A stretch of DNA of 25,468 nucleotides. Origin: a virus. The position numbers were made by a program, and so were the translations under genes. Position 1 is the first letter of the stretch. Each line of letters opens with the position of its first letter. The notes under the pieces were generated by a model that saw only the letters and a program-made list of their open reading frames with translations, did no database searches and was not told where the DNA came from. The DNA lies in IMG/VR virus record IMGVR_UViG_3300036857_000457, positions 1 through 25,468 of that record. One strand, 5' to 3'. Shown one piece after another: positions 975 to 15,179 of this stretch.

Positions 975-1012
975 ACGCGTCAGGTGCCGCCACGTGTAAT
1001 GGAGGGGGCGCG

Positions 1013-1534
1013 ATGCGGGTCACGGTCGAGGAATCCGGCCGGAAAGTCGTGATCGAGGACGGCGTGGCCAAGGCGGCCGAACCGGCCGGGTGGGACGGGG
1101 CGACCGTCGCCGGCCCGGTCGTCAAATCCGCGCCGCACCGCCGGTTCACTTTGCAGGTCGCTTACCCGGTCAACAAAGCCGATGCCGTGGTGGCCGCGGA
1201 CGGGCACCGGGACTTCACCGGCCCCGAAGCACTTGAAGACGCGGCCTGGTCGTACCTCACCAAATCGCCCAAGGTTGGCCTGCACCACGCCCCGGGCACC
1301 GACGGCGCGGGCCGCGTGGTCGAGTCGTACGTCTACCGCGGCCCCGACTGGAACGTCACCGCACCCGACGGCACCACCCAGACCGTGAAAGCGGGGGACT
1401 GGATGGTGGGGATCGTCTGGAACCCGGACGCCTGGGACATGGTGCTGTCCAAACGCATCAACGGGGTCTCCATGCAGGGGTCGGCTCGCCGCCGTAAGCC
1501 GACCCGCGAGGCGCTCGCGCAGCTGAGGAGTTAA
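1013..1534 (+). CDS. XkdF-type prohead (capsid maturation) serine protease
   Basis: The protein has 173 residues. ATG at 1013 is chosen because GGAGGGGG lies 5 nt upstream and the similarity starts here, not at the earlier start in the same frame. Residues 47-160 match the XkdF-like phage protease family: a VAYPVNKAD opening, then GLHHAPGTDGAGRVVESY, then a GDWMVGIVW strand and INGVSMQG. By family analogy the His at 91/92 and Ser153 of the NGVSMQG motif are the catalytic candidates. Such proteases are packed into the procapsid and cleave scaffold and capsid N-termini during maturation. The gene is followed after 5 nt by the long scaffold-like head gene and then the capsid gene, as expected for this role. 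Confidence 0.8.
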   Translation: MRVTVEESGRKVVIEDGVAKAAEPAGWDGATVAGPVVKSAPHRRFTLQVAYPVNKADAVVAADGHRDFTGPEALEDAAWSYLTKSPKVGLHHAPGTDGAGRVVESYVYRGPDWNVTAPDGTTQTVKAGDWMVGIVWNPDAWDMVLSKRINGVSMQGSARRRKPTREALAQLRS

Positions 1535-1539
1535 AACCG

Positions 1540-4104
1540 ATGGCCAACCCTGCGCTCGCCACCGAAGAGCCCGAGGACCTCGAAGGCATCACCGAACTCG
1601 AAAAATTCGACCCCGAACGCGTCGACGGCGTTTTCACGCCCGCGTCGGGTCTTCCATTCCTGATCATCAAAAGCGCCCAGGGGGGTGGCATGGACGAGAC
1701 CGCGGCCGAGCCCATGAACGGAGGCGCTCCCCCTGAGGACGAGGTGGCCAAGGAAGACGGCCAGCGTGACGCCGACGGCGAGAACGCCCGCTCCGCCAGC
1801 GAAGACGACAGCCCCGACACCGGAGCCGGCGACACCGACGCAGACGGGGACGCCGAGAAAGCCGCAGACGGTGAAACGGCTCAGGCGGAAACGGCACCGG
1901 ACCCCGATCCTGACCCGATGGCCGCGGTGAAGAACGCCTCACCCGCCGACCAGGCCGCCTACCTCGCCGCGGTACGCGACTACCGGGCGTCGGAGCCGAT
2001 GGCGAAGGGCGCCACGAACGGCACCGAGTTCCTCCAGGCGAAGGTCGCGTGGCGGCAGTGGGCCGCCCACGGCGACGAAGAAGGCCTCGACGGCACCGAA
2101 GCGGGCGCGGCCCGCTGGCTCGCCAAGCACGGCACCGGCCCCGTCGCCAAGATCGTGGGCGGCCACGGCCCCGAACTGGTGAAGGCGGACGACGACGCCG
2201 TGGTCATCCCCTCCCCGGAGATGGTCGACGCGCTGTTCAAGGCTGAGGCCGAGGTGTACAAGCGCGACTTCTCCACCGACGAGCGCAAGCGGCTCGCAAG
2301 CGAGGGCAAAGCGCTCAGCGATGGCAGCTATCCGATCCCAGACGCGGACGCGCTCCGCCGGGCCGCGATCCTCGCCCGGTCCGGCCACGGCAACGTCTCC
2401 GGCGCCAAAGCGCTCATCCGCAGGCGTGCGAAGGAACTCGGCGTCTCCAACCCGCTGGACGACAACAACCAGACCAAAAAGGACGCCCAGGCCGCCGGTG
2501 ACATGCCGAAGGGCAAGAAGTGCTCCGCCTGCAAGGGCAAGGGCACGATGCGCGGCGGCAACATGAAGTGCTTCAAGTGCGAGGGCAAGGGTGCCATGCC
2601 ACCGAAGGCCACCAAGGCCGCCCGCGCGGCCACCGAGGCCGTCAAAGCGGTCGTCGCGTCCGGCGCCATCACCGAAGAGGCCGGGAACGGGCTGATCGCC
2701 CAGATCGAAGCCGAAGCCGCCAAGGCCGCGGGCCCGGGCGCCCGCCCGGTCCCGGCGACGACCGAACCGGTCGCGCCGCACCGCGAACCAGACGGCACCT
2801 CGACGGTGGAGCAGCTGGAACCGGACGCTGGCCTGGGCACTGACCCTGACCAGCACATGGACCACGTGCCCGCATCCGTGAGTGCGCTGACGATGAAGCA
2901 GGCCTCCTACGAGGTGCAGCGGATGCACGACGCCACCTGCGCCGCGTACGCCACCGAGGATGTGCTAGCCGCCTACCCGGCGCTCAAGTCCGTCGCTGAC
3001 GCGGTCGACGCAGCCCTGTTCACCAAGGAAGCACAAGACGCCCTCGGCGCCGGCGAGCCCGCCCAGGCGGCGGTGCTGGCGCAGGTCGCCGCGACCGCGA
3101 TGACATTCAAGGGCTTCAGCCCCGCTGCCATCGCTGACGGGCACGCGTTCCTGCACAAGAGCTTCGCTGACATGTACCCGGACGAGCACATCAAGCCGCA
3201 GCAGGGCATCAAACCCGGCTCCTACCAGCGCCCCTACCTCACTTCGGGGCATGCGGCGGAAAACGCGGGCGGCTGGACGGTGAACGTCCCACCCTCCACC
3301 CACGTCCCCGAACCGGGCGACTTCCAGCGGGGCAACCTCACCGCCGGCCACCAGGCACCATCCCCAGCCGACCACGGCCCCAACAACCCCAACCCCCCCG
3401 ACGCTGGCGGCCGGTCCTACTACTCCACCACCGAAAAAGACATGGCCGCAGCGGCGATGCGGTCAATGCACGACCACATCCAGGCCACCTACGACGGCTG
3501 CTGCCCGATGGCCCCCGCCCGCACCGTCCTCCCACCGCAGATGGGCGCCACGAACACCCCATCCACCACCATGCCCCACGCCACAGGCGGCGTCGCCGGC
3601 ATGAACAAAGGCACCGCCGAAGAGCAGGGCGCGGTCCCCGCCGACGGCGACCGGAAGATCAAGGGAAACAAAGGCATGTCCCGCAAAAAGGTCGCCAAAA
3701 TGCTCGAACAAGCCCTCCGCAACGCCGGCACCAGCCTCCTCGGCCCCGCCGAAGTCGAAGCGATCATCGCCGCGAAACTCGCCCCCGTCGCCGAGGCACA
3801 CAACGCCCAGGTCGCCAAGATGCAAGAACAACTTGACGAACTCGGAAAGCAGCCCGACCCGGCACTGGCCCCCGTGCGTGGCCAGATGCGGGCCGGGAAC
3901 GGGCCCGCCACTCCCGTGGAGAAGCGGTCCCTCATAGATGAGGCCAACGACGCCCGCATCGCTGCAGCACAACGGGAACACGCCAGCCTCATCCAGTACG
4001 TCGCCAAACAGGCCGAATCGCCTGACCCCAACGTCCGCGAGCGCGCCCGCGCCTACCTCGACCAGCTCGCCGAGCAAAACGGAGGCGCCCGTGTGCCCGC
4101 CTGA
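1540..4104 (+). CDS. Large scaffold-like head protein with zinc motif and coiled-coil C-terminus
   Basis: The protein has 854 residues and starts with ATG 5 nt after the protease stop, with GAGGAG upstream. Residues about 55-125 are a very acidic, low-complexity linker. Residues about 240-307 (DFSTDERKRLASEGKAL, then GSYPIPDADALRRA) match a small domain common in actinophage head proteins. Residues 328-350 hold two DnaJ-like CxxCxGKG motifs (CSACKGKG and CFKCEGKG), likely binding one metal. The middle is rich in Pro and His. The C-terminal 150 residues are charged and helical (KKVAKMLEQALRN, VAKMQEQLDELGK) and look like a coiled coil. Placement between protease and capsid gene suggests an internal scaffold or capsid-maturation protein (inference). 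Its length is unusual for a scaffold, and it may be a fusion of several modules. Confidence 0.65.
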   Translation: MANPALATEEPEDLEGITELEKFDPERVDGVFTPASGLPFLIIKSAQGGGMDETAAEPMNGGAPPEDEVAKEDGQRDADGENARSASEDDSPDTGAGDTDADGDAEKAADGETAQAETAPDPDPDPMAAVKNASPADQAAYLAAVRDYRASEPMAKGATNGTEFLQAKVAWRQWAAHGDEEGLDGTEAGAARWLAKHGTGPVAKIVGGHGPELVKADDDAVVIPSPEMVDALFKAEAEVYKRDFSTDERKRLASEGKALSDGSYPIPDADALRRAAILARSGHGNVSGAKALIRRRAKELGVSNPLDDNNQTKKDAQAAGDMPKGKKCSACKGKGTMRGGNMKCFKCEGKGAMPPKATKAARAATEAVKAVVASGAITEEAGNGLIAQIEAEAAKAAGPGARPVPATTEPVAPHREPDGTSTVEQLEPDAGLGTDPDQHMDHVPASVSALTMKQASYEVQRMHDATCAAYATEDVLAAYPALKSVADAVDAALFTKEAQDALGAGEPAQAAVLAQVAATAMTFKGFSPAAIADGHAFLHKSFADMYPDEHIKPQQGIKPGSYQRPYLTSGHAAENAGGWTVNVPPSTHVPEPGDFQRGNLTAGHQAPSPADHGPNNPNPPDAGGRSYYSTTEKDMAAAAMRSMHDHIQATYDGCCPMAPARTVLPPQMGATNTPSTTMPHATGGVAGMNKGTAEEQGAVPADGDRKIKGNKGMSRKKVAKMLEQALRNAGTSLLGPAEVEAIIAAKLAPVAEAHNAQVAKMQEQLDELGKQPDPALAPVRGQMRAGNGPATPVEKRSLIDEANDARIAAAQREHASLIQYVAKQAESPDPNVRERARAYLDQLAEQNGGARVPA

Positions 4105-4157
4105 TCCACGCACACACCAGGCCCGCGCAGGGCCTCTCGCCTCAACGGAGGCTACGC

Positions 4158-4643
4158 ATGCCAGAACAGAACGTCATGGACACCCCCGCGGTGCCCTACG
4201 GATCGGCAGCCGCGCCGGTCCTCGAATCCGCCGGTGAAGACACCCGCTGGTACGCCGCAGCGGACCCCCACCGGTACACCGCCCCCGACCTCATGCTGTC
4301 CGACAAGATGCCCACCCTCGTCAAAGGCGCAGGCTACGCCCGCATCGGCGGCAACATGCCGCTGTCCGACGACGGCGAGATCTTCAAGCGCAGCATGCGC
4401 GCCGAGTCGGCGTTCCGCACCGCCATCAAGAAGGGCATCGAACAGCCCGGCGAAGTCGTCAAGGGCCTCGCGCCCGAGTTCGCAGGCCAGTTCGGTGCTT
4501 TCATGTCGGCTTCGCCCCAGTCCCAGGCGATCTCGCAGCTGACCGCACAGCTGAACAACGTGCTGTCCGCGGAACTGGGCAAGTCGATCACGCTCACCTC
4601 GCCACTTTCGACGGGTTTCGTGCCCTTCGACTTGGTGGCCCCT
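4158..4643 (+). CDS. Major capsid protein exon 1
   Basis: This exon encodes residues 1-162, from MPEQNVMDTP to FDLVAP. It holds the N-terminal arm, including DLMLSDKMPTLVKGAGYARIG and the helical SQAISQLTAQLNNVLSAEL segment. Unspliced reading continues only two more sense codons (CAA AAC) to a TGA inside the intron. The exon ends in GGCCCCT, which pairs with GGGGGCT at 4655-4661 to form P1 with the usual U-G wobble at the cut. Confidence 0.85.
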
Positions 4644-7618
4644 CAAAACTGAACGGGGGCTCCATTCCGCGAGGAATGGATGTGAACCGCGAGAATTGCT
4701 GGGAAGCCCGCACCTACCCGCATGTGCCACAGCGTGGCCGGAAACGGTGAGCGCGACGGCCTGAAAAACCATGCGGCAGGGGTAATCAGCAGCCGAGCTG
4801 ACCTGGGTCCGTGACCCGATCAGAAGGTTCAGAGATCATGCACGCGGGCTCTGCCACTGGGCAGAGCGTAAGATGATCCGGCCTCACGTGAGAGCGTGAG
4901 AGCTACCCGGAAACGAGGTAGCCCGGCCGCAGGGTCCGGTAACAATGCGTCATCGCTCATCTACCCTGTGTATTCGCCGTTGAGGAACAAGCTCGCCCGT
5001 GTACCCGGCCAGGGCACCACGAGGCGGCGCAAGGTCATCACCGGCATCTCCGGCTCCCAGACCGGCCCGTCCGGCGGATCGTTCGTCCGCCTGGCGATCC
5101 CGGAACTGGTGCAGTCCGGCGGCAACATCTCCGGCAGCAGCTCCGCGGTCAACTGGCCGCTGAACCTGCCCGGAACCGGCACCCAGGACGCGGTGGACCT
5201 CAATATCCCTTCCACCAAGGTAGGGGCCTCACTCGGCGACGAGTGAGTGAAAACCACGAGAATTGCTGGAAAGCCCGAGTCACCCACTCGCACCACAGCG
5301 TGGCCCGAAAGAGCGAGCGCGATGGTTTGAAAAGCGAGTGGCAGGGGTAATCAGCAGCCGAGTCCCTAAAGGCGACACGCCCAAGGGAAAGGTTCAGAGA
5401 CTCTGTACGTGGGATCTGGCACAATTGAATAATAGCGCACTGCGCAACCTCGGCATCCCAGTCCGGCAGCAAGGCGGCCGTCGCGTCAAGGGCGGCTTCT
5501 ACCAAGCCAGATCAAGATAGAGTCCGACCCCGTGTGAGAGCACGGGAGGGCGGCGGAAACGACCGCCCCCGCCGGCGTTGCTGGCGAGTAACAATGTGTA
5601 CCGCTTCTGGGGCCTGTCTGAGAACCTGTCCTGGCTCGCCCAGTTCGGCGGCCAGGGCTTCGAAGACATCTCCGCCCTGGCCAACCTCCTGCTCCTGCAG
5701 GAGTTCATGCTCAACGAGGAAGCCTCCCACCTGGGCGCCACTTCCTCCGCCCTGTCCGCGCCCAGCGCGCCGACCCTCACCGCGAGGTCGGCGAACTCGG
5801 GCGAGACCGCACTGACCGGCATCACCACGAACGTTTTCGTAGAGGTGTCAGCCTGCACGTTCTTCGGGGAAACGGCCGCCGGGTCGTCCGCCTCGGTTGC
5901 CTGGTCCTCGGGCCAGGTCGTGGACGTGCAGATCAGCCCGGTCGCCGGGGCGATGTTCTACAAGATCTACGCCACCACGGGTGCCTCCGCAGGCACCTAC
6001 CACCTGTTCGCGAACAACGTCGGCGGCCTGTACTACACGCTGCAGGGCGCACTGCCGACCACGACCGCGCAGCCCCTCACCACCGACTCGGGGACCTCGT
6101 CCGCGAACGATGAAGAGGGACTGTTCTCCGTCCTGTCCGGCCACGCTGCCAGCGCGACGGTCTACCCCTCCAGCTGGCAAGCGGGCTACCTGAATCAGTC
6201 CGTTGGCGACACCCTGAAGACCTCGGTCCTGAACACGGCTCTCCAGAACCTGTGGGATGGCACCGGGACCACGTACGGATCGTTCCGCGCGGACCCGGCC
6301 GAGATCATCGGGGAAGGCGGCGACATCGCCCGCCTGTCCAACGACATCGTGCAGAGCGGTGCCGCCACCAACTACCGGCTGTTCGTGGAGCAGTCGGAGG
6401 TGCCCGGCGTCCGCCTCGGCGCGGCTGTCAGCGAGTTCCAGAACCCCGTCACGCGTTCCGTTGTTCGCGTGGTGGTCCACCCGTGGCTCCCGCAGGGCAA
6501 CGTCCTGCTGATGAGCTACACGATGCCGTTTGCGTGGAGCAACGTCTCGAACGTGATTGAGTTCGTGGCGGTCCAGGATTACCTCTAACGCAGAGTAACT
6601 AGGGGCTCACGTACGGTGACGTACGTAGAGAATCCGCACTGTTCGGGGAACCCCACCGCTATTGCGGGGAATCCCGAGCGTCAGCGATGCCCGCTGGCGT
6701 GTAGAGACTGTATGTGCGGGATCTGTGACATGGACGTGGTTGCGGGGCATTGCGCAGCTACGGCCGCAGATCAAGAGACAGGCCGATCTCATGGGATGGC
6801 AAACCATGAGAGGCAGGCAGAAATGACCTGCCCCGCCCTCCGGGGCGAGTAACAAAATGCAGTATTTCCTGGCCCGTGATCGACGCATCGTTCCGGTAAC
6901 AATGCTTGCCGCCCGGCAGGGCAACCTGCCGGTGAAAATCCCGAGAATTGCTGGGAAGCCCGTACCACCTGACCGCACCACAGCGTGAGGCGAAAGCCTG
7001 AGCGCGATGGTCCGAAAAGCGGCCAGCAGGGGTAATCAGCAGCCGAGCGCCTACAGCCTCACATCTACGGCGAAGGTTCACAGATCATGCACGGGAAGCC
7101 CCACCGGGGCTAAGAGATGATCGGGCCTGCGGTGAGAACCGCAGAGGGTAGCGGAAACGACTGCCCCCGCCAGCCGAGCTGGCGAGTAACAAAGACGACA
7201 GCATGTTCATGTACGGCGCCATGGTGGTGAACGCACCCTTCAGTGCAAATTGAGGGCCACCGCACGGTGACGTGCGGATGGGATTCCCGAGAATTGCTGG
7301 AAAACCCGAGTCACCTGCTTGCACCACAACGTGAGGCGAAAGCCTGAGCGTGACGGTCCGAGAAGCGAGCAGTAGGGGCAATCAGCAGCCGAGCCCGCCT
7401 GCCTTACGGCGACGGGAAGGTCCAGAGGCCATGTACGGGACACCCCCATGGGGTGAAGATATGGTCCGCACCTGCGCGAGAGCGCGGGAGGCAGGCGGAA
7501 CAGAAACGACCTGCCCCGGCAGTCTTTTGATTGCCGTGTAACAGACGTGGTCTACTGCGGTCTCCTCCAGGGCATTCAGAAGAGCGACAGGTCGGGTTCC
7601 ACCGGAACCTGGTCCTGA
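4158..7618 (+). CDS. Major capsid protein, HK97-type, interrupted by five group I introns
   Basis: Proposed mature coding sequence: join(4158..4643, 4950..5210, 5599..6584, 6860..6897, 7198..7239, 7551..7618), 1881 nt, 626 residues. ATG at 4158 has GGAGG 8 nt upstream. Each exon ends where an intron core begins, each intron carries in-frame stops, and phases at all five junctions (0,0,2,1,1) restore a single frame. Rebuilt junctions read naturally: DLVAP-SSLIYPVYSPLRN, DLNIP-YRFWGLSENLSW, VQDYL-SISWPVIDASFR, ASFRY-SMFMYGAMVVNAP and NAPF-YCGLLQGI, ending in GTWS. The family call rests on position after protease and scaffold, an N-terminal part resembling actinophage capsids, the QGFEDISALA helix and the WPVI..YGAMVVNAP C-terminus. 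Residues about 305-415 form a beta-rich insertion resembling an Ig or FN3 domain. Without splicing only a 164-residue fragment can be made, so capsid production depends on five splicing events. Junctions are uncertain by a few nt. Confidence 0.85.
4644..4949 (+). ncRNA. Group I intron 1 in the capsid gene (306 nt)
   Basis: All four conserved core elements are present: P (GAGAATTGCTGGG, 4691-4703), Q (AATCAGCAGCCGAG, 4784-4797), R (GGTTCAGAGATCATGC, 4826-4841) and S (TAAGATGATCCGG, from 4869). P4 forms between TTGCTG and CAGCAG, and P7 between GATCAT in R and ATGATC in S. P1 is a 7-bp helix between the exon end GGCCCCT and GGGGGCT (4655-4661) with U-G at the cut. The intron ends in G after TAACAATGCG. 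There is no internal ORF, so it cannot encode its own endonuclease. Exact ends rest on reading frame and P1. Confidence 0.9.
4950..5210 (+). CDS. Major capsid protein exon 2
   Basis: This exon encodes residues 163-249, from SSLIYPVYSPLRNK to AVDLNIP. It resembles the segment that follows the N-terminal arm in actinophage capsids (YPVxxPLRNKLxRVxGQG). It has no start codon with a ribosome binding site. It can be read as a free-standing ORF only by entering intron sequence on both sides, so it is an exon. Confidence 0.85.
5211..5598 (+). ncRNA. Group I intron 2 in the capsid gene (388 nt)
   Basis: The core is P (GAGAATTGCTGG from 5258), Q (5349-5362), R (GGTTCAGAGACTCTG from 5391) and S (TCAAGATAGAGTCC from 5512). 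P7 pairs GACTCT (5399-5404) with AGAGTC (5519-5524). P1 pairs CCCT (5207-5210) with GGGG (5223-5226). It is 77-113 nt longer than the other four introns. The extra sequence lies between R and S (about 5412-5508), the P8 region where group I introns often carry endonuclease ORFs. That segment is open in one frame and reads LRNLGIPVRQQGGRRVKGG, possibly a decayed ORF end. The 3' end is TAACAATGTG. Confidence 0.9.
5599..6584 (+). CDS. Major capsid protein exon 3 (core, with inserted beta domain)
   Basis: This exon encodes residues 250 to 577 plus two bases. It begins YRFWGLSENLSWLAQFGGQ, a long-helix region, then carries a Thr/Ser/Ala-rich insertion (about residues 305-415: SAPTLTARS to TTDSGTSS) that looks like an Ig or FN3 fold. 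It returns to the capsid core at DEEGLFSVLSGHA and ends NVIEFVAVQDYL. Unspliced reading meets TAA at 6586, directly after the splice site. Confidence 0.85.
6585..6859 (+). ncRNA. Group I intron 3 in the capsid gene (275 nt, divergent core)
   Basis: This intron lacks the AATTGCTGG and AATCAGCAG boxes shared by the other four but shows an equivalent compact core. P4 can form between TTCGGG (6642-6647) and CCCGA (6673-6677), P5 is the short hairpin between them, R is TAGAGACTGTATG (near 6702) and S is TCAAGAGACAGGCC (from 6771). P7 pairs CTGT (6708-6711) with ACAG (6778-6781). The 3' end GCGAGTAACAAAATG resembles the ends of the others. P1 is weak (CCT with GGG), so the 5' border is the least certain. 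Frame restoration on both sides supports excision. Confidence 0.75.
6860..6897 (+). CDS. Major capsid protein exon 4 (38-nt micro-exon)
   Basis: Only 38 nt lie between introns 3 and 4. Read in phase they give SISWPVIDASFR and the first base of the next codon. This matches the conserved penultimate strand of related capsids (QDYxxISWPV). The 5' border is ambiguous: intron 3 may end at 6859 or at 6862, which would remove one residue. Confidence 0.75.
6898..7197 (+). ncRNA. Group I intron 4 in the capsid gene (300 nt)
   Basis: The core is P (GAGAATTGCTGGG from 6943), Q (7034-7047), R (GGTTCACAGATCATGC from 7075) and S (TAAGAGATGATCGGG from 7111). P7 pairs GATCAT (7083-7088) with ATGATC (7117-7122). 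P1 is a short 4-bp helix, CGGT (6894-6897) with GCCG (6908-6911), with U-G at the cut. The peripheral hairpin GTGAGGCGAAAGCCTGAGCG is shared with intron 5. The end is placed after TAACAAAGACG; an end at 7194 is also in frame. Confidence 0.85.
7198..7239 (+). CDS. Major capsid protein exon 5 (42-nt micro-exon)
   Basis: It encodes SMFMYGAMVVNAP with partial codons at both ends. The MYGAMVVNAP motif is typical of the C-terminus of this capsid type. The 5' border could be 7195 instead of 7198, which would add one Asp. The 3' border is ambiguous by one base because a T occurs on both sides; both choices give the same mRNA. Confidence 0.75.
7240..7550 (+). ncRNA. Group I intron 5 in the capsid gene (311 nt)
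   Basis: The core is P (GAGAATTGCTGG, 7289-7300), Q (7380-7393), R (GGTCCAGAGGCCATG from 7419) and S (GAAGATATGGTCC from 7455). P7 pairs GGCCAT (7427-7432) with ATGGTC (7461-7466). P1 pairs CCCTT (7236-7240) with GAGGG (7252-7256). The cut may fall after 7239 or 7240 with the same spliced product. Q, R and the GCGAAAGCC hairpin are closest to intron 4, suggesting these two are sister copies. Confidence 0.85.
7551..7618 (+). CDS. Major capsid protein exon 6 (C-terminal)
   Basis: It encodes YCGLLQGIQKSDRSGSTGTWS and the TGA stop at 7616-7618. Bases 7576-7618 are also read on the other strand as the last 13 residues and stop of the LAGLIDADG endonuclease gene, so 43 nt are used by two genes in opposite directions. 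Confidence 0.8.
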
Positions 7619-8178
7619 ACCTCCGCGTCATCCTGCGCAAGCTGGGCCGGGGCCTCACCGTCCCGGCCTGGCTTGTTCAGGCCCTTCACTTCCAGGTAAT
7701 AGCCACGCCAGCGGTCCAGGTGCTCCTGACCGGTCCTGAGCCGCTCGCGCATGATGATTTGCCCATCACGCTTGTACGCATGCTGGCCCGAACTGCGCGT
7801 CCGCAGTCCCGGCTGGCGCTTCTCGCGCTCAAGCTGAATAACCAGCTCGGCCTGCCGGTGCTTGAGCCGCAGGTAGGGCAGCAGGATCGCGACCACCCGG
7901 GCCGCGCTCCCGCAAGACGCCTCGGTGACCGACAGGGCGCAAGTGCTGATGGCGTTGCTGTAGGTGCGGTCCGAGACTGTCAGGTCGAACGCCTCGGCGA
8001 ACGCCACGATGATGCCCCGGTCTGACATCCGCAGCGAGAAGCGTCCCTGATAGTTCACGCCACGGTCGGCCCGGCGCACTTCCCGGATGCCGATGTGGCC
8101 CTCGCCGTCAATGAGCCCCGCCCAGTAGGCAAGGTCGGTTGCTGGGCTTGTGAGTATGGGGCAGGTACGATCGGCCAT
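7576..8178 (-). CDS. LAGLIDADG-family homing endonuclease
   Basis: The protein has 200 residues. ATG at 8178 is preferred over the earlier in-frame start at 8223 because AGAGGAG sits 5 nt upstream. Residues about 16-32 hold the family signature YWAGLIDGEGHIGI, with the acidic residue expected to coordinate catalytic metal. Further on, ARVVAILLPYLRLKHRQAEL is the helix typical of single-motif actinophage members. Only one LAGLIDADG motif is seen, so the enzyme probably acts as a dimer. The gene runs against the capsid gene and its 3' end overlaps capsid exon 6 by 43 nt. It lies 25 nt beyond the last intron. Because the introns have no ORF, it may cut intronless capsid alleles and move neighbouring introns (inference). 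Confidence 0.88.
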   Translation of the reverse strand: MADRTCPILTSPATDLAYWAGLIDGEGHIGIREVRRADRGVNYQGRFSLRMSDRGIIVAFAEAFDLTVSDRTYSNAISTCALSVTEASCGSAARVVAILLPYLRLKHRQAELVIQLEREKRQPGLRTRSSGQHAYKRDGQIIMRERLRTGQEHLDRWRGYYLEVKGLNKPGRDGEAPAQLAQDDAEVQDQVPVEPDLSLF

Positions 8179-8183
8179 GTCGA

Positions 8184-8190
8184 CTCCTCT
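8184..8190 (-). promoter_or_regulatory. Ribosome binding site that sets the homing endonuclease start
   Basis: AGAGGAG on the minus strand lies 5 nt before ATG at 8178. The upstream alternative start at 8223 has no such site. Confidence 0.7.
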
Positions 8191-8280
8191 GCAGTCGGCC
8201 GGCCCTCGCGAGTCTCTGACCACTCGCGGGGGCCACTTGTATGTAACCCAATTCTACCGGATACCCCGGTCATTTCCCCT

Positions 8281-8294
8281 TTACCCCCCGAAGG
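8281..8294 (+). repeat. 14-bp direct repeat, copy 1
   Basis: TTACCCCCCGAAGG occurs here and at 8615-8628, with similar C-rich flanks. The two copies bracket the 98-codon gene at 8305-8601. This copy runs into that gene's ribosome binding site. Confidence 0.6.
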
Positions 8295-8304
8295 AGAGAG
8301 GGCT

Positions 8305-8601
8305 ATGCCTGCCACCATTGACACTGACGCTTACGTTTCCGGCCTCGCCGACCCCGACGGCGCGATTCGCGAACTCCTCAATCCGGTCACCCGGACGTCC
8401 GTGATCCTGAAGCCGCCCTTCACGCCGCAGTCGGCGGATCATGAGGTCGGTTTCATCAGGCTGTTCTGCGCCTATTGCCAAGCCGCATGGGCGGTCGGTC
8501 GGCTCGACCCTGACACGCTGACTCTCCACGGTGGCAACGCGACCTTCCCGGACTATGAGACACCCACCCCACTCTGGCCAGGTACCCCCAGCGAGTCCTG
8601 A
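8305..8601 (+). CDS. Small hypothetical phage protein
   Basis: The protein has 98 residues. ATG at 8305 follows AAGGAGAGAGG at a good distance, which fixes the start against longer readings. The sequence is soluble and acidic (MPATIDTDAYVSG, then VGFIRLFCAYCQAAWAVGR) with no signal peptide, membrane segment or known motif. One CxxC (CAYC) is present, too little to call a zinc site. It lies between the endonuclease gene and the glycan cassette, bracketed by a 14-bp direct repeat, so it may be an independently acquired small gene. Function unknown. Confidence 0.65.
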   Translation: MPATIDTDAYVSGLADPDGAIRELLNPVTRTSVILKPPFTPQSADHEVGFIRLFCAYCQAAWAVGRLDPDTLTLHGGNATFPDYETPTPLWPGTPSES

Positions 8602-8614
8602 CCTTCAACCCCCC

Positions 8615-8628
8615 TTACCCCCCGAAGG
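8615..8628 (+). repeat. 14-bp direct repeat, copy 2
   Basis: This is the second copy of TTACCCCCCGAAGG, placed in the non-coding 98 bases between the small gene and the first glycosyltransferase. No start codon follows closely here, so it is not simply a shared ribosome binding site. Confidence 0.6.
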
Positions 8629-8684
8629 GCTGACGCTCACCTTGAATACATTCAGGGCCTCCCATGCCGCGATTCTGGCGGCTA

Positions 8685-8690
8685 GGGGGG
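8685..8690 (+). promoter_or_regulatory. Ribosome binding site of the first glycosyltransferase
   Basis: GGGGGG ends 9 nt before GTG at 8700. The alternative GTG at 8711 has no purine-rich site at a suitable distance. This supports the frame that begins at 8700 and is broken shortly afterwards. Confidence 0.5.
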
Positions 8691-8699
8691 TGATCTAGG

Positions 8700-9898
8700 G
8701 TGCGCATTTTGTGGCACTCGAATTTAGCGCTCCGTGGAGCCCGACGGGCTACGGTATGCAGACCGCCATGTGGGTGCCGCGCCTGAAGGCCCTCGGCCAC
8801 GACGTCATCATCTCGGCCTTCTACGGCCTCCAGGGCGCCCCCCTCACCTGGAATGACATCCCGGTCATCCCCGGGCAGGCGCCGGCGGACCCGTACGGTG
8901 CGCAGCTGATCGGTGAGCACGCGAAACGCACGAACGCTGATGTGGTGATCACTCTCGGGGACATCTGGGTGCTCGGCCCGGAGCACCTCAAAGGTGTGCC
9001 GGTCGCCCACTGGATGCCGGTGGACTGTGACCCGCTGGGGAAGATGGACAAGGACTGCCTGAAAATGTCGGGCGCCCCCGTTTTCCCGATGTCCCGGTTC
9101 GGGGAGCGGCTGATCCGCGAGGCGCTGCCCGATGTGGACGCCTTCCACGTCCCCCACGGCATCGACACCTCCGTCTTCAGGCCGTCTGAGGACCGGCAGG
9201 AGTGGCGGCGGATGCTCGGCCTGCAGGGCCGGTTCGCGATCGGGATCAACGCCGCGAACAAGGACGGTTTCCGCAAGGGCATGTTCGAGCAGTTCGCCGC
9301 GTTCGCGATGTTGCATAAGAGGCATCCGGATACGGTGCTGCTGATCCATGCGATGGTGCGGGAACAGCATGCGGTGGATCTGTCGGCGATTACGGACAAT
9401 CTGGGGATCTCGGATGCGGTCAGCTTTGTTGACCAATACCCTTACGCCACCGGGCAGGTGCCGGTTGAGCATCTGGTGAACTGGTATTCGGCGCTGGACC
9501 TGTACTCGAATGCGGCGCTAGGTGAGGGTTTCGGGCTCACCGTGCTCGAAGCGAACGCGTGTGGTGTGCCGGCGGTCGTGACGGACTTTTCCTCGATGCC
9601 GGAAGTGCTCGGTTCGGGGTGGAAGGTGCCGGGGGAGCGGTTCTGGAATCCGACGCACCGTGCCTGCTGGGTGAAGCCGTCGATCCACGCGCTGGCGAAG
9701 GTGTATGAAACGGCGTACCAGCGCGGGAGCGCCTATCACGCCAAGCGGAACAAGGCACGTGATTCCGTCATGAAATATGACGTGGAATATGTGCAGAACC
9801 AGTTCTGGAAGCCTGCTTTGGCGTGGCTTGAGCCGGTCATGGCGGAGCGGCGGGCGAAGATCGCCGCCCAGGCCGCGGATGAGAAGGCCGCGGCATGA
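8700..9898 (+). CDS. GT4-type glycosyltransferase with 5-nt frame break near the N-terminus
   Basis: From GTG at 8700 the frame reads VRILWHSN, the usual opening of phage GT4 enzymes. It then meets TTAGC (8724-8728) and leaves frame, stopping after 28 codons. Omitting those five bases gives VRILWHSN-APWSPTGYGMQTAMW, the expected continuation. The rest (395 residues if read from GTG at 8711) is intact: an N-terminal Rossmann half, VPHGIDTSVFRP at the domain hinge, and EGFGLTVLEANACGVP, the EX7E-type motif that binds the nucleotide of the donor. The fold is GT-B and acts in the cytoplasm, transferring a sugar from a nucleotide donor. Initiation at 8711 could give a protein lacking the first beta strand. 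It is first in a nine-gene cassette and overlaps the next gene by 4 nt. Confidence 0.75.
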
Positions 9899-10569
9899 TC
9901 TCCCTCCTGTGCCCGACGCGTAACCGCCCGGACAACGTGCGGCGGCTGATGCGCACCGCCCGCACCACCGCAGCTGACCCGTTCAGCCTGGAGTTCGTCT
10001 TCTACTGCGATGATGACGCGCCGCTGCCTGATGACATCAAGGACCAGGTCGGTGTGGTGACGATCACCGGGCCGCGGATCGTCCTGTCGGCGATGTGGAA
10101 CGCGTGCGCCGGGCAGTCGTCGGGGGAGATCCTGATGCAGGCCGCGGATGACATCGTGTTCTCCACCCCCGGGTGGGACGCGCTGGTGCGGGCCGAGTTT
10201 GAGAAGGTGCCGGACCGGATCCTGCTCGTCCACGGGCATGACCCGATCCAGGGCGGCGGGCTGGGGACGCATTCGTTCCTGCACCGCCGGTGGGTGGAGA
10301 CGGTGGGGTATTTCAACCCGCCGTACTTCTCCTGCGACTGGATGGACACCTGGATCAACGACCTGGCCGACCGGATCGGCCGCCGCGTGTACCTGCCGGA
10401 CGTGCTGATCGACCATCTGCACCCGTCCCGCGGGTACGGGTGGGACGCGACCTACCAGGACAAAGCGGAACGTGGGCAGCGGGACAACGTGGTGGCCCTG
10501 TACGCCTCCCTGGAGGGCGAGCGGGCCGCGGACGCGGAGAAGCTGCGCGCGGCCATGGTGGCGGCGTGA
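9895..10569 (+). CDS. GT2-like (GT-A fold) glycosyltransferase
   Basis: The protein has 224 residues and starts with an ATG inside the previous stop (ATGA). It opens MISLLCPTRNRPDNVRRLM, the nucleotide-binding start of family 2 enzymes. It has FYCDDDAPLP in the middle and AADDIVFSTPGWD around residue 84, the DxD-like metal site. The segment PPYFSCDWMDTWINDLA resembles the acceptor side of phage glycosyltransferases. There are no membrane segments, so a soluble enzyme using a nucleotide sugar is expected. Donor and acceptor cannot be told from sequence. Confidence 0.75.
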   Translation: MISLLCPTRNRPDNVRRLMRTARTTAADPFSLEFVFYCDDDAPLPDDIKDQVGVVTITGPRIVLSAMWNACAGQSSGEILMQAADDIVFSTPGWDALVRAEFEKVPDRILLVHGHDPIQGGGLGTHSFLHRRWVETVGYFNPPYFSCDWMDTWINDLADRIGRRVYLPDVLIDHLHPSRGYGWDATYQDKAERGQRDNVVALYASLEGERAADAEKLRAAMVAA

Positions 10570-11528
10570 GGTACCTGGTCACCGGCGGTGCCGGGTTCAT
10601 CGGGTCCGCTTTGGTGCGCCGTTTGCATGCTGTTGGGCATGAGGTGCGGGTGCTGGACGATTTCTCCCGCGGCCAGCCGCGGCGGCTGGCTGGTGTGCCG
10701 TGTGAGATGGTCCGGGGGGATGTGCGGGACCCGGGCGTGGTGTCGGCTGCGGTGCAGGGGTGTGACCGGGTCGCGCACCTGGCTTACTTGCAGGGGACGC
10801 AGGTTTTTTATGCGGAGCCGCGGCAGGTGCTGGATGTGGCGCTGCGGGGGATGCTGAACGTTCTCGCCGCGTGTGAGCAGTGGGGTGTGGGTGACCTGCT
10901 GCTGGTGTCCTCTAGCGAGGCGTACCAGGTGGCCACGGCCGTGCCGACGCCGGAGACGGTGCCGTGTTCGGTGCCGGACGTGCTGAACCCGCGGTACTCC
11001 TACGGTGGTGGGAAGATCGCGTGCGAGCTGATGGCGTCCGCGTGGCAGCGGACGGGTGTCCTTGACCGGGCGATCATTGCCCGGCCGCACAACGTCACCG
11101 GCCCGGACATGGGCCGCGAGCATGTGATCCCCCAGTTCTGCCTGCGGATGCTCGAACTGACCCGGCAGCAGCCGGAGGGTGTAATCCGTTTCCCCATCCA
11201 GGGGTCCGGGCAGGAGACCAGGTCGTTCTGCTGGGTCGGCGACTGTGTGGACCAGCTGGTGCTCCTGCTCGACCGGGCCCCTGCTGGGGTGGGCATCTGG
11301 CATGTGGGTGCGATGGACGAGCGGACGATCGAGGACGCCGCGCATGCCGTCGCTGCCGCGTATGGGCGGGAGATCAAGGTGGTGCCGGGGACGCTGCCGG
11401 AAGGGTCGCCGCCGCGGCGGCTGCCCGATGTCAGCAAGGTCGGTGCGCTCGCGCCCGGTTACATGCCGTCGGTGGGTTTCGCTGAGATGGTGAAACGTAC
11501 CGCTGCCTGGTATCAGGCACATGGGTGA
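10566..11528 (+). CDS. NAD-dependent sugar epimerase/dehydratase (extended SDR)
   Basis: The protein has 320 residues and begins at a GTG overlapping the preceding TGA. The N-terminus VRYLVTGGAGFIGSALVRRL carries the TGxxGxxG dinucleotide-binding loop. VSSSEAY supplies the active-site Ser, and YSYGGGK (near residue 144) is the YxxxK catalytic pair of extended SDR enzymes. ARPHNVTGPDM and FCWVGDCVDQL follow as in NDP-sugar 4-epimerases and 4,6-dehydratases. It probably changes stereochemistry or oxidation state of a nucleotide sugar for the neighbouring glycosyltransferases. The exact reaction is not decided by the visible motifs. Confidence 0.8.
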   Translation: MRYLVTGGAGFIGSALVRRLHAVGHEVRVLDDFSRGQPRRLAGVPCEMVRGDVRDPGVVSAAVQGCDRVAHLAYLQGTQVFYAEPRQVLDVALRGMLNVLAACEQWGVGDLLLVSSSEAYQVATAVPTPETVPCSVPDVLNPRYSYGGGKIACELMASAWQRTGVLDRAIIARPHNVTGPDMGREHVIPQFCLRMLELTRQQPEGVIRFPIQGSGQETRSFCWVGDCVDQLVLLLDRAPAGVGIWHVGAMDERTIEDAAHAVAAAYGREIKVVPGTLPEGSPPRRLPDVSKVGALAPGYMPSVGFAEMVKRTAAWYQAHG

Positions 11529-12630
11529 AATCAAGGAATGCGGGTTGTGTGGCAGTACCGACCTGCCGGTGATCCTGGATATGGGGGAGCAGCCGCTCGC
11601 TGAGCGGTACGGCACCGACGCCCGGTTCCCGCTGGCGGTGGCCGAGTGCGGGGACTGCACGCTGCTGCAGCTGACGTGGGCGGCGGACCCGGCGCAGGTG
11701 TTCCCGCCGGACCATCCGTACGCGTCGGGGGACACGGCTGTGCTGCGGGAGCACTTCGCCGCGCTCGCTGCGGAACTGGACCCCGGCGCGGGCCTGGTGG
11801 TGGACATCGGTGCCAACGACGGGACGCTGCTGGAGTATTTCGGCGGGGACGTGCTCCGGGTCGCGGTCGAGCCGACCGGGCAGGCGGCGAAATGCCGCAG
11901 CAAGGAACTGGTCACCTACCAGGAGTTCTTCTCCCGCGAACTGGCGCAGCGGATCGTGGCGGAGTATGGCCGGGCGCGGGTGGTCACCGCCACCAATGTG
12001 CTGGCGCACGTCCCGGACGTGCACGGTTTCGTGGCCGGGGTGACGGCCCTGCTCGATGATGACGGCGTGTTCGTGGCCGAGACCCACGACGCGGCAGCGA
12101 TCACCACTGGCCTGCAGGTAGACACCGTCTACCACGAGCATCTGCGGTATTTCACGCTGGCGACGCTGGCCAGCCTGCTCGCGGCGCATGGTCTCCAGGT
12201 GGAGCGTGCTGAGCGGATCGGGACGCATGGCGGGTCGATCCGGGTGCGGGCACGCAGGCGCACCGGTGCGCTGCAGGAGCGGGCGGACTCGGCGGCCCAC
12301 GCACTGTGGAGAATGCTCTTTGAGGTCACCGAAGATGGCAGCCGGGTGTACGGGATCGGTGCCACGACCCGCGCCACACCCTTGATCCACTTCGCGGGCA
12401 TCGCGGGGTTCATCGCCTGCGTGTGCGAGGTGCCCGGGTCGGCGAAGATCGGGCTGACGATCCCCGGCACCACGATCCCCGTGGTGGATGAGCAGCGGCT
12501 GCTCGATGAGCAGCCGGAGTACGCGCTGCTGCTCTCCTGGCATGTCGCGGCCACGATCACCCGCAAACTGCGCACGGCTGGGTACCGGGGCAAGTTCATC
12601 GTCCCGCTCCCAGAACCCCAGGTCATCTGA
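11521..12630 (+). CDS. NDP-sugar C-methyltransferase-like SAM enzyme
   Basis: The protein has 369 residues and starts 8 nt before the end of the previous gene. It shows the three-part layout of sugar C-methyltransferases. An N-terminal zinc domain has two Cys pairs (ECGLCGS and ECGDCTLLQ). A Rossmann SAM domain follows with VVDIGANDGTLL. The family motif YHEHLRYFTLATLASLL is followed by GTHGGSIRV. The C-terminal domain ends VPLPEPQVI. Known relatives methylate carbon 3 of deoxysugar nucleotides. Here it suggests that the cassette makes a methyl-branched sugar, working on the product of the adjacent SDR enzymes. It is also possible that the substrate is already glycan-bound. Confidence 0.8.
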   Translation: MGEIKECGLCGSTDLPVILDMGEQPLAERYGTDARFPLAVAECGDCTLLQLTWAADPAQVFPPDHPYASGDTAVLREHFAALAAELDPGAGLVVDIGANDGTLLEYFGGDVLRVAVEPTGQAAKCRSKELVTYQEFFSRELAQRIVAEYGRARVVTATNVLAHVPDVHGFVAGVTALLDDDGVFVAETHDAAAITTGLQVDTVYHEHLRYFTLATLASLLAAHGLQVERAERIGTHGGSIRVRARRRTGALQERADSAAHALWRMLFEVTEDGSRVYGIGATTRATPLIHFAGIAGFIACVCEVPGSAKIGLTIPGTTIPVVDEQRLLDEQPEYALLLSWHVAATITRKLRTAGYRGKFIVPLPEPQVI

Positions 12631-12669
12631 CCCGCTCCCCCCCCCCATCCCCCCCTTGAGAGGTTTTCT

Positions 12670-13023
12670 GTGGCTGACCGGTTCGAGGACGCACGTGGCG
12701 TCATCCAGGACATCCTGCCCGGCCCGATCGACGGCGTGACCCACATTTTCACCAAAGCGGGTGCGGTCCGCGGGAACCATGTGCACCGTGAGACGACCCA
12801 GTGGGCGTATGTGCTGTCGGGGCGGCTGCTCGCGGTCACCGAGGCCGGCGGGTTCGTCCACCGCGACGAGTACGGGCCCGGTGAGATGGCCTGCGACGAG
12901 CCGGGTGTGCCGCACGCGTGGAAAGCGCTCGGCGACACCGAGGTGCTGGTGTTCACCCGCGGCCCGCGTACCGGTGAGGGGTATGAGTCCGACACCGAGC
13001 GGCTGAGGACTCCGCTGCTGTGA
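12670..13023 (+). CDS. Cupin-fold protein, possible sugar ketoisomerase or epimerase
   Basis: The protein has 117 residues. GTG at 12670 follows GAGAGG. The cupin barrel is clear: VTHIFTKAGAVRGNHVHRET is the first metal or sugar-binding motif (GNHVHR), WAYVLSGRLLAVTE is the central strand pair, and GEMACDEPGVPHAWKALG is the second motif. Single-domain cupins in deoxysugar pathways act as ketoisomerases or epimerases without cofactor, and the cassette context fits that. A simple sugar-binding role cannot be excluded. It lies 39 nt after the methyltransferase and overlaps the next gene by 4 nt. Confidence 0.65.
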   Translation: MADRFEDARGVIQDILPGPIDGVTHIFTKAGAVRGNHVHRETTQWAYVLSGRLLAVTEAGGFVHRDEYGPGEMACDEPGVPHAWKALGDTEVLVFTRGPRTGEGYESDTERLRTPLL

Positions 13024-13673
13024 TCACCTGGGATATTCTCCTGCCGACGTTGCCGCACCGGCACGGGCAGCTGTGCGCGCTCCTCGCCGAACTGGACCGC
13101 CAGTGGCAGCCGGGTGTGGGGATGCTGATCTTGCGGGACAACCTGCAGCGCCCCGGGAACGCCTCCTACGCCAAGTGGCAGGAACTGCAGGAATGGTCGA
13201 AGGCGGACTACACGTCGTTCATCGGTGACGACGACTGGATCGCCCCCGATTTCGTCGCCCGGATCATGGGGGCGCTGGAAGCACACCCGGACTATGTCGG
13301 GTTCCCGGTCGCGTTCACCTACAACGGGGCGCCGCAGATGCGGGTCGAGCATTCGCTGCACTGGGGGGGCTGGTTCAGCACCCCGGACATGCTGGCACGT
13401 GACATCGTGCACCACAACCCGATCCGCCGCGAGCTGGCGCTCCTCGCGACGTGGGCGACTGATCACCAGTCGGCGGACGTCACGTGGGCCGATGATCTGC
13501 GCGCGACCGGGCGGGTGCGTTCCGAGGTGTGGATACCGGAGCCGATCTACCACTACCGGCAGTCGGACGCCACCTGGTCCGCTGGTGCGATCACCCATCT
13601 GGCGCCGCTGCCGGCGGGTGAGATTCTGCCCATCCCGCAATACCCGTGGCTGACGGTGCGTGACGAAGCATGA
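13020..13673 (+). CDS. GT2-like (GT-A fold) glycosyltransferase
   Basis: The protein has 217 residues, from a GTG overlapping the cupin stop. It opens WDILLPTLPHRHGQLCALL, followed by LILRDNLQRPGNASYAKW and YTSFIGDDDWIAPDFVARI. The GDDDW sequence is the metal-binding DxD motif of family 2 enzymes. The end (IYHYRQSDATWSAGA) is Trp and Tyr rich like the acceptor-binding end of related phage proteins. The enzyme is soluble. It differs clearly from the enzyme at 9895, so they probably add different residues. Confidence 0.75.
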   Translation: MITWDILLPTLPHRHGQLCALLAELDRQWQPGVGMLILRDNLQRPGNASYAKWQELQEWSKADYTSFIGDDDWIAPDFVARIMGALEAHPDYVGFPVAFTYNGAPQMRVEHSLHWGGWFSTPDMLARDIVHHNPIRRELALLATWATDHQSADVTWADDLRATGRVRSEVWIPEPIYHYRQSDATWSAGAITHLAPLPAGEILPIPQYPWLTVRDEA

Positions 13674-14500
13674 AGTGCGTAGTTACGGGCGGTGCGGGGT
13701 TCATCGGTTCCCACCTGGCTGACCTGCTCCTGGCTGAGGGCCATCAGGTGACGGTCATCGACGCGCTGTGGCCCGGCCGCGGCGACCCTACCCGCGTCAG
13801 CGAGGGCGCACGGTTCTGCAAGGCTGATATCCGCGACGCCGCTGCCCGGCAGGCCCTCGCCGGCGCGGACTGGGTGTTCCACACCGCGGCGGTGTCCACG
13901 ACGCCGTGGGCGGTCGCCGACCCGGTGGAATGCAACAGCATCAACGTCGACGGCACCCTCAGCTTGCTCGAAGGCGCCCGGCACGCCGGCGTGTCCCGGT
14001 TCGTTTTCTCCTCCTCCAACATTGTCTATGCGGCGCCGACGGCGTACTGGGCGTCGAAACTGGCCGCCGAGCATTACTGTCACGTCTACACCACCCTGTA
14101 CGGGCTGCCGGTGGTCGCGTTGCGGTACTCGAATGTGTTCGGGTCTTTGCGGCAGAACCCGGAGAACTGCATCGCCTCGATGCGTGCCTCGTACCTGGCG
14201 ACGGGCCGGATCTGGCTGACCGGCGACGGGGAGCAGTCCCGCGACTTCACCAATGTGGCCGACGTGTGCCGTGCGAACCTCCTCGCCGCGGCCAGTGACG
14301 CGGCGGGCACCGTGGATATCTGCACGGGTGTGAACCGGACGATGAACGAGATCGCGGCCATGTTCGGCTGCCCCATCGACTACCGCCCGGACCGGCCCGG
14401 TGACATCCGGCACATCCGGCAGGACCCGGCGCCGGCGCGGGAACTCCTCGGCTTCGAAGCCGCCGTCCCATTCAGTCAAGGCATGAAGGCGTACCTGTGA
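13670..14500 (+). CDS. NAD-dependent sugar epimerase (extended SDR)
   Basis: The protein has 276 residues and starts with an ATG overlapping the previous TGA. MKCVVTGGAGFIGSHLADLL is the NAD-binding loop, FSSSNIVYAA contains the active-site Ser, and YWASK is the YxxxK motif. RYSNVFG and SRDFTNVADVCRANL are typical of UDP-glucose or UDP-glucuronate 4-epimerase relatives. At 276 residues it is shorter than the usual 310-330, mainly in the C-terminal substrate domain. It is the second SDR of the cassette, so two different sugar nucleotides, or two steps on one, are implied. Confidence 0.8.
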   Translation: MKCVVTGGAGFIGSHLADLLLAEGHQVTVIDALWPGRGDPTRVSEGARFCKADIRDAAARQALAGADWVFHTAAVSTTPWAVADPVECNSINVDGTLSLLEGARHAGVSRFVFSSSNIVYAAPTAYWASKLAAEHYCHVYTTLYGLPVVALRYSNVFGSLRQNPENCIASMRASYLATGRIWLTGDGEQSRDFTNVADVCRANLLAAASDAAGTVDICTGVNRTMNEIAAMFGCPIDYRPDRPGDIRHIRQDPAPARELLGFEAAVPFSQGMKAYL

Positions 14501-15069
14501 GCTACCCGTATGACACCGACAAGGTGGAGCCGCACGGCTACATGCCGGACTACATGCGGCTCGTGAAAGAACTCGGGCCGGCTGCCACCGTGTGCGAGGT
14601 GGGTGTGATGCACGGCGGGTCGCTCGCCATGTGGCAGGACCTGTTCCCCCACGGCACCGTGATCGGGGTGGACAACAACCCGGACGCCACCTGGCCGGAA
14701 GGCACACTGCGGATCGTCGCCGGGCAGGACGACCCGGGCCTCGGCGGCATGGTGCGTGAGCACGCACCAGACGGGTGTGACCTGATCGTGGACGACGCCT
14801 CCCACATCGGCCACCTCAGCCGTGCCACGTTCGCGTCGCTGTGGCCGCTGGTGAAACCCGGCGGCATCTACGTGGTCGAAGACTGGGCCGACCCGTGGGT
14901 GTTCCCCGACTGGATGCGCTGGCCCCACGTCGACCCTTCCCTCGAAGGCGACGAACTGATCGACTACGTGCCGGAACTGATCGAGGCGCTGAAAGACGGC
15001 GCCGCGCAGGTGACCTACACCTACGAGGGGCTCGTCATCATCCGCAGGAAACCCGCGCAGGACTCCTGA
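14497..15069 (+). CDS. Class I SAM methyltransferase (macrocin/cephalosporin-hydroxylase-like)
   Basis: The protein has 190 residues, from a GTG overlapping the previous stop. EVGVMHGGSLAMWQDLFP is the SAM-binding loop, IGVDNNPD the acidic residue that binds the ribose, and DLIVDDASHIGHL the post-motif with the metal-type Asp pair. WPLVKPGGIYVVEDW closes the fold. This pattern is found in sugar O-methyltransferases of natural product clusters. It is a candidate for capping or modifying the glycan. It is followed by a hairpin at 15091-15119. Confidence 0.72.
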   Translation: MSYPYDTDKVEPHGYMPDYMRLVKELGPAATVCEVGVMHGGSLAMWQDLFPHGTVIGVDNNPDATWPEGTLRIVAGQDDPGLGGMVREHAPDGCDLIVDDASHIGHLSRATFASLWPLVKPGGIYVVEDWADPWVFPDWMRWPHVDPSLEGDELIDYVPELIEALKDGAAQVTYTYEGLVIIRRKPAQDS

Positions 15070-15090
15070 CGCGCCTCCCGCCCGCGCGCT

Positions 15091-15119
15091 GGCCTGCACG
15101 TTAAACTCACCTGCAGGCC
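15091..15119 (+). terminator. Hairpin after the methyltransferase gene, possible attenuator
   Basis: GGCCTGCA (15091-15098) and TGCAGGCC (15112-15119) form a perfect 8-bp stem with a 13-nt loop. It is followed by GGTCCTTTATT, which is only weakly T-rich, so termination would be partial. It separates the last glycosyltransferase from the rest of the cassette. Confidence 0.45.
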
Positions 15120-15179
15120 GGTCCTTTATTGCCAGCCACCGCGCTGCGCTCACCCCCCAGGCATCGCAGGGAGTTCCCC

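Follow-up and report, generated by a model that had tools for sequence, protein, structure and literature searches.

On sequence and structure, the major capsid gene of a phage known solely from metagenome data is interrupted by five group I introns, which occupy 1,580 of the gene's 3,461 bp (Table 1). The gene lies at 4158-7618 of the window, by which we mean the whole 25,468-base virus fragment that was analysed (IMG/VR record IMGVR_UViG_3300036857_000457). An earlier sequence-only reading had proposed five such introns in one major capsid gene, and this proposal now has support from the sequence and structure, from covariation, from intronless relatives and from the rules for splice sites. 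We consider it highly probable (about 0.9) that the five are separately inserted self-splicing introns of two subfamilies, remnants of mobile elements, and that their exons are joined into one capsid message.

Table 1. Layout of the interrupted capsid gene and of the adjoining and embedded endonuclease sequences (positions in the window).
Feature	Position	Strand	Remarks
Capsid exon 1	4158..4643	+	486 nt; intronless relatives align to ..FDLVAP
Group I intron 1	4644..4949	+	306 nt, P5abc-type; between P162 and S163
Capsid exon 2	4950..5210	+	261 nt
Group I intron 2	5211..5598	+	388 nt, P5abc-type; between P249 and Y250
DUF559 homing endonuclease C-terminus remnant	5434..5508	+	in P8 of intron 2; SALRNLGIPVRQQGGRRVKGGFYQA
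Capsid exon 3	5599..6584	+	986 nt
Group I intron 3	6585..6859	+	275 nt, short-P5 subfamily; inside codon 579, after second base
Capsid exon 4	6860..6897	+	38-nt mini-exon, SISWPVIDASFR
Group I intron 4	6898..7197	+	300 nt, P5abc-type; inside codon 591
Capsid exon 5	7198..7239	+	42-nt mini-exon
Group I intron 5	7240..7550	+	311 nt, P5abc-type; inside codon 605
Capsid exon 6 and stop codon	7551..7618	+	68 nt
Free-standing LAGLIDADG-type endonuclease gene, 215 aa	7576..8223	-	antisense; overlaps capsid 3' end by 43 nt

The introns were delimited by comparison with uninterrupted genes. In most of the 24 relatives of the large exon retrieved from IMG/VR, the gene is a single uninterrupted frame, and alignment of the window with an uninterrupted relative breaks at five places. 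The exact intron ends were determined by comparing the codons at the breaks across nine relatives, together with the rule that the 5' exon ends in U and the intron in G. A custom spliced-alignment program, with intronless relatives 78% and 51% identical as queries, placed all five introns at exactly these bases. Removal of the introns leaves a frame of 626 codons followed by the stop at 7618; splice reconstruction and spliced alignment both placed all six exons in frame, with no stops and no frameshifts, and the restored frame agreed with the uninterrupted relatives at all five junctions. The single 626-codon frame predicted from the sequence, with 1.58 of 3.46 kb being intron, was thus confirmed by the relatives and by spliced alignment. 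The lengths of exons 2 and 5 are divisible by three, that of exon 4 is not. No further introns were detected in the window by the Rfam model RF00028 or by the short-P5 model described below. Three features had gone unremarked in the sequence-only reading: the two mini-exons, the antisense LAGLIDADG-type gene next to the capsid gene and the endonuclease remnant in intron 2.

The group I assignment was assessed by Infernal search with RF00028, the check that the sequence-only reading had named. Four matches were obtained in the window, all within 4631-7546: intron 2 (59.4 bits), intron 5 (45.6), intron 4 (32.3) and intron 1 (29.5). The search therefore recovered introns 1, 2, 4 and 5, with only intron 2 exceeding the gathering score of 50 bits and the other three below it, but it missed intron 3, for which the window scan gave no RF00028 match. 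The splice sites of all five introns follow one rule: the 5' exon ends in U, a U.G pair is present in P1, and the terminal base of the intron is G. In intron 1, for instance, P1 is GGCCCCU/GGGGGCU and its U.G pair lies at the 5' splice site. The P1 helices with the splice-site U.G comprise 7, 5, 6, 6 and 8 pairs in introns 1-5, respectively, and over 54 introns the mean P1 length was 6.1 bp, compared with 4.07 in a control with random exon ends. The P7 pairs quoted earlier were correct, namely GATCAT/ATGATC in introns 1 and 4, GACTCT/AGAGTC in intron 2 and GGCCAT/ATGGTC in intron 5. A stop codon in the host frame occurs no more than 12 codons past the 5' splice site in 5/5 window introns; counting all introns, 49 of 54 have such a stop, and the corresponding figure for the other frames is 61 of 108. 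Inteins were ruled out because every window insert has a host-frame stop within this distance. Guanosine-dependent self-splicing would be expected of all five introns, and they probably splice in vivo.

Two intron subfamilies are present. Introns 1, 2, 4 and 5 have P2, P3, P4, P5, P6, P7, P8, P9, P9.1 and P9.2 in common, and their P5 bears a long P5abc-like extension with a GAAA loop, a feature that suggests what we take to be an IC-like subgroup. The four introns said to have a common core are indeed one P5abc-type subfamily supported by covariation. In an alignment of 23 P5abc-type introns of the capsid family (A2), 91.7% of 1,771 cells were standard pairs, compared with 70.0% after shuffling; 57 of 79 pairs had changed on both sides, and P3 and P7 were 100% and 92% paired. 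The corresponding alignment of 19 short-P5 introns (A3) had 94.6% of cells paired versus 68.6% in shuffles, with 47 of 58 pairs changed on both sides. For both alignments, 0/500 shuffles reached the observed values. In the slid-partner control, 33-40% of A2 cells were paired; the A2 and A3 structures, being hand-drawn from the window introns, are somewhat favoured in this comparison, and the shuffles and both-sided changes are independent of that.

Intron 3 belongs to the short-P5 subfamily. A covariance model of this subfamily built without intron 3 matched it at 6631-6788 with 163.5 bits (E 6e-47); elsewhere in the window, the same held-out model matched just introns 1 and 2, both weakly, and these matches suggest that the two subfamilies share a core. 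The P7 of intron 3 has one mismatch, which is also found in two relatives. A P3-P9 catalytic core with the P3/P7 pseudoknot was thus recovered by covariation in A2 and A3 and, for intron 3, by the held-out model. The earlier description of a fifth intron with a divergent core was right in that intron 3 differs from the other four, but it represents a second, well-conserved subfamily and not a degenerate copy. Although their P4-P6 domains differ, both alignments have a near-invariant GTAACA that lies a few bases upstream of the 3' splice site.

Several lines of evidence together uphold the label of major capsid gene. The family corresponds to phrog_13692, which is listed as of unknown function. 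Pfam SU10_MCP matched 8 of 32 relatives (best E-value 8.6e-5), and a 27%-identical homolog in Alicyclobacillus phage MMB025 is annotated as a major head protein and lies directly after the head maturation protease gene. The AlphaFold model of an intronless relative (L007) had a pLDDT of 58, and its top Foldseek matches were mainly tailed-phage virion proteins, including the SPO1 and SU10 capsids, with weak E-values; owing to the low pLDDT, these fold matches carry little weight. No homologs of the window exons were found in annotated phage records at 1e-5, and a distant relative used as the query matched five such records. A first scan of genome contigs gave no matches and a second scan gave two MAG contigs, while a PDB sequence search with the capsid family returned nothing meaningful. 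The SU10_MCP matches, the MMB025 homolog with its gene order and the fold matches support the identification of the interrupted gene as a tailed-phage major capsid gene.

The closest relative (contig 3300036806_000225; L005/L054/L089) shows 85.6% codon-level identity and is syntenic over window positions 1001-10541. Its DNA (L089) is uninterrupted at the sites of introns 1, 2, 3 and 5, where the flanks abut, and it has an intron of its own at the site of intron 4, which is also occupied in L013 and L222. Precise excision thus restores the gene, and intronless alleles exist. Among the relatives examined, which are 80 of 147 IMG/VR capsid relatives, intron number ranges from 0 to 9, and most of the retrieved relatives have no intron in the capsid gene. 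By spliced alignment, one intron is present in L018 and L005; two in L036, L213 and L186; three in L013, L173 and L053; four in L010 and L224; five in L220; six in L221 and probably also L222; and nine in L218/L219, a distant relative (contigs 3300027795_000039 and 3300004091_000032). Short N-terminal "introns" proposed by the program that lacked the GTAACA 3' end were left out of these counts. In L218/L219, RF00028 alone gave six matches per contig and a 19-nt exon lies between two introns; the ends of the second of the nine introns of L218 are unsure. One exon of L222 is 16 nt. More than 20 insertion sites are found in the capsid gene among relatives, with sites 162, 249, 288, 578, 591 and 593 recurring.

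The suggestion that five introns are unmatched in phage capsid genes does not survive this comparison, since IMG/VR relatives carry 4, 5, 6 and 9, and a crAss-like capsid gene with four insertions has been published (PMC7886860). Because relatives have up to nine introns, the capsid gene appears to be a repeated target of a mobile intron family and not a one-off. Judged by these alignments, the window is one member of an intron-prone capsid lineage and not its record holder.

The relatives also point to where the introns came from. At sites 162 and 249, relatives have introns of 1.2-1.4 kb that encode DUF559 (PF04480) proteins, and the introns of other relatives encode LAGLIDADG-type proteins in antisense. 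No intact homing endonuclease ORF was found in the five window introns, and intron 2 contains a remnant, which is 79% identical over 24 aa to the endonuclease of L013 (2e-6) and 72% identical over 25 aa to that of L010 (7e-5). Intron 2 matches the two ends of the 1,321-nt site-249 intron of L013 with 85% and 83% identity, and the approximately 950 nt between them are absent. As judged from these alignments, intron 2 is a deletion derivative of an endonuclease-bearing intron.

It might be supposed that neighbouring introns were copied within the gene, by reverse splicing or recombination, and did not arrive separately. Four of the introns have one core in common, several 5' exons end in CCT, which would suit short G-rich guide sequences, and GTAACA is conserved near the 3' end in both subfamilies. 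However, every P5abc-type intron of the window is closer to an intron of another phage (best core identity 83-89%) than to the others of its own gene (71-80%). Intron 2 shares 89% and 87% identity with the same-site introns of L036 and L221, versus 72-79% with its window neighbours, and in an intron tree it is nearest to the site-249 introns of L036, L221 and L010, although this tree, built on 166 columns, has weak support at many forks and does not group sites 591 and 162 cleanly. We therefore regard copying within the gene as unlikely. The closer kin in other phages and the remnant in intron 2 fit separate arrivals with later loss of endonucleases, and the window introns look like independently acquired mobile elements. 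Homing was probably the route of intron gain. Codon-level divergence from L005 gave no clear co-conversion tract; identity was lower only near introns 1 and 3, and there within the spread of the gene.

Beside the capsid gene, the product of the antisense gene at 7576-8223 matched PF00961 with E 5.7e-4 (21.2 bits, cut-off 23.1) and phrog_5046 with 2.4e-16. That free-standing LAGLIDADG genes of this kind might move introns in trans is a guess. In L089, a 262-aa LAGLIDADG-like frame at 9180-9968 (-) directly follows the capsid gene; it differs from the 215-aa gene of the window and occupies the same spot. Another endonuclease gene of the window, of the HNH_3/NUMOD4 type (366 aa), lies antisense at 22309-23409 (-) amid structural genes and may be a second mobile element.

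Under separate insertion, each intron would have entered at a strongly conserved stretch of the capsid protein. In the transcript, each would fold and excise itself by means of its own P1 and a bound guanosine, and the six exons, including those of 38 and 42 nt, would be ligated into one 626-codon message. The in-frame stop close to each 5' splice site may keep ribosomes off the ribozyme cores. Relatives with endonucleases, mostly DUF559 and some antisense LAGLIDADG, would have spread by DNA homing; the window copies would have lost, or would lack, endonuclease genes, and are proposed to persist because they splice.

The sequence-only reading had further suggested that five splicing events per message could control the timing or amount of capsid. 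The presence of introns with intact cores in a structural gene, the occurrence of the P5abc-type family in several unrelated capsid genes, and the discussion of phage introns as switches (PMC11878797) would agree with such a role. Nevertheless, the number and sites of the introns vary freely among relatives, most of which have none, and the 86%-identical gene has one; hence, the claim is unsupported. The variation site by site, from 0 to 9 introns, is what mobile elements tolerated by the phage would be expected to produce, the sites and endonuclease remnants fit such elements as well, and no sensor element or common regulatory feature was found in the introns. We infer that a regulatory role is lacking, and consider control by splicing quite improbable. 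Least probable of all, to the point of being very doubtful, is that these are partly decayed introns in a dying or chimeric capsid copy or an artefact of assembly: the record is a metagenomic fragment and introns 1 and 4 have low Rfam scores, yet all exons are in frame and free of stops and frameshifts, the ribozyme helices are intact by covariation, and related multi-intron layouts recur in contigs of different assemblies (L010/L011, L218/L219 and L221/L225).

Related cases are known from phages. Four insertions, three of them with group I intron-type domains, divide the major capsid gene of a crAss-like phage of the Zeta group (cMAG OLRF01000054) into five ORF fragments (Yutin et al. 2021, PMC7886860). 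This case resembles the window in being a phage major capsid gene split by several insertions; it differs in that its four insertions were recognised by endonuclease domains and belong to another phage lineage, whereas the five introns of the window are small, lack endonuclease genes and fall into two subfamilies, and its relatives have up to nine. RT-PCR and N-terminal sequencing showed that a capsid intron of mycobacteriophage LittleE is spliced (Pope et al. 2013, PMC3706429). That intron is likewise group I-like, with a 5' exon ending in U, a terminal G and an antisense LAGLIDADG gene, in a high-GC phage; unlike the window, LittleE has a single intron, roughly 820 bp long. For Twort orf142 and for polymerase and terminase genes of Bastillevirinae, two or three group I introns per gene are described, with exon skipping; in one Bastillevirinae gene, an exon was skipped in 47% of the transcripts (PMC11878797 and references therein). 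These cases differ from the window in having no more than three introns per gene, mostly in genes of nucleotide/DNA metabolism, and the Bastillevirinae introns average about 800 bases. Jug phages have many group I introns, of which about half of those tested were backed by RNA reads (PMC12363816). The Mirusvirus capsid gene also has many introns that differ between close relatives, but its introns are spliceosomal and occur in viruses of eukaryotes (PMC12768974). In view of the crAss-like, LittleE and Bastillevirinae cases, the five-intron capsid gene is a more pronounced instance of an established phenomenon. With RF00028 its introns have in common the P3-P8 core and the P, Q, R and S elements, and the short-P5 subfamily lies outside the reach of that model.

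Earlier reports of phage introns came mostly from genes of nucleotide/DNA metabolism, and the number per gene reached three or four. The present case is a structural gene whose expression must be very high; it has five introns, the number rises to nine in relatives, and mini-exons are only a few codons long. The natural series of 0, 1, 2, 3, 4, 5, 6 and 9 introns in one gene offers a test of how much splicing load can be borne, of gain and loss at a site, and of how exon skipping is avoided when neighbouring ribozymes have similar cores. Standard annotation fragments such capsid genes, and one of the two intron subfamilies escapes the Rfam model.

Further copies of the P5abc-type core were sought with DNA patterns derived from the window. 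P5abc-type introns were seen in an unrelated capsid gene (phrog_1357) that follows portal and scaffold-like genes (L206, 2500-4700) and in its kin (L047, L031, L080, L177, L197 and L062), several of which have two or three. They were also seen in capsid genes matching phrog_10, phrog_267 and phrog_1005 (L048, L050, L029/L039/L052/L075 and L190), in a gene for a major tail protein (L066/L174/L180), and next to frames that on visual inspection resemble RecA/DnaB (L184/L216). Since the search patterns were taken from the window, the matches in unrelated capsid genes are a lead and not a census. It is conceivable, although we would sooner doubt it, that the intron subfamilies specialise in phage structural genes, in at least five unrelated head-protein families and with up to nine per gene and exons down to 16-42 nt, their endonuclease-free members relying for movement in trans on free-standing LAGLIDADG genes that have repeatedly become established beside the capsid gene. 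Elsewhere in the structural region of the window, a cluster of glycosyltransferase, epimerase, methyltransferase and cupin genes lies at 8711-15887, as if for sugar decoration.
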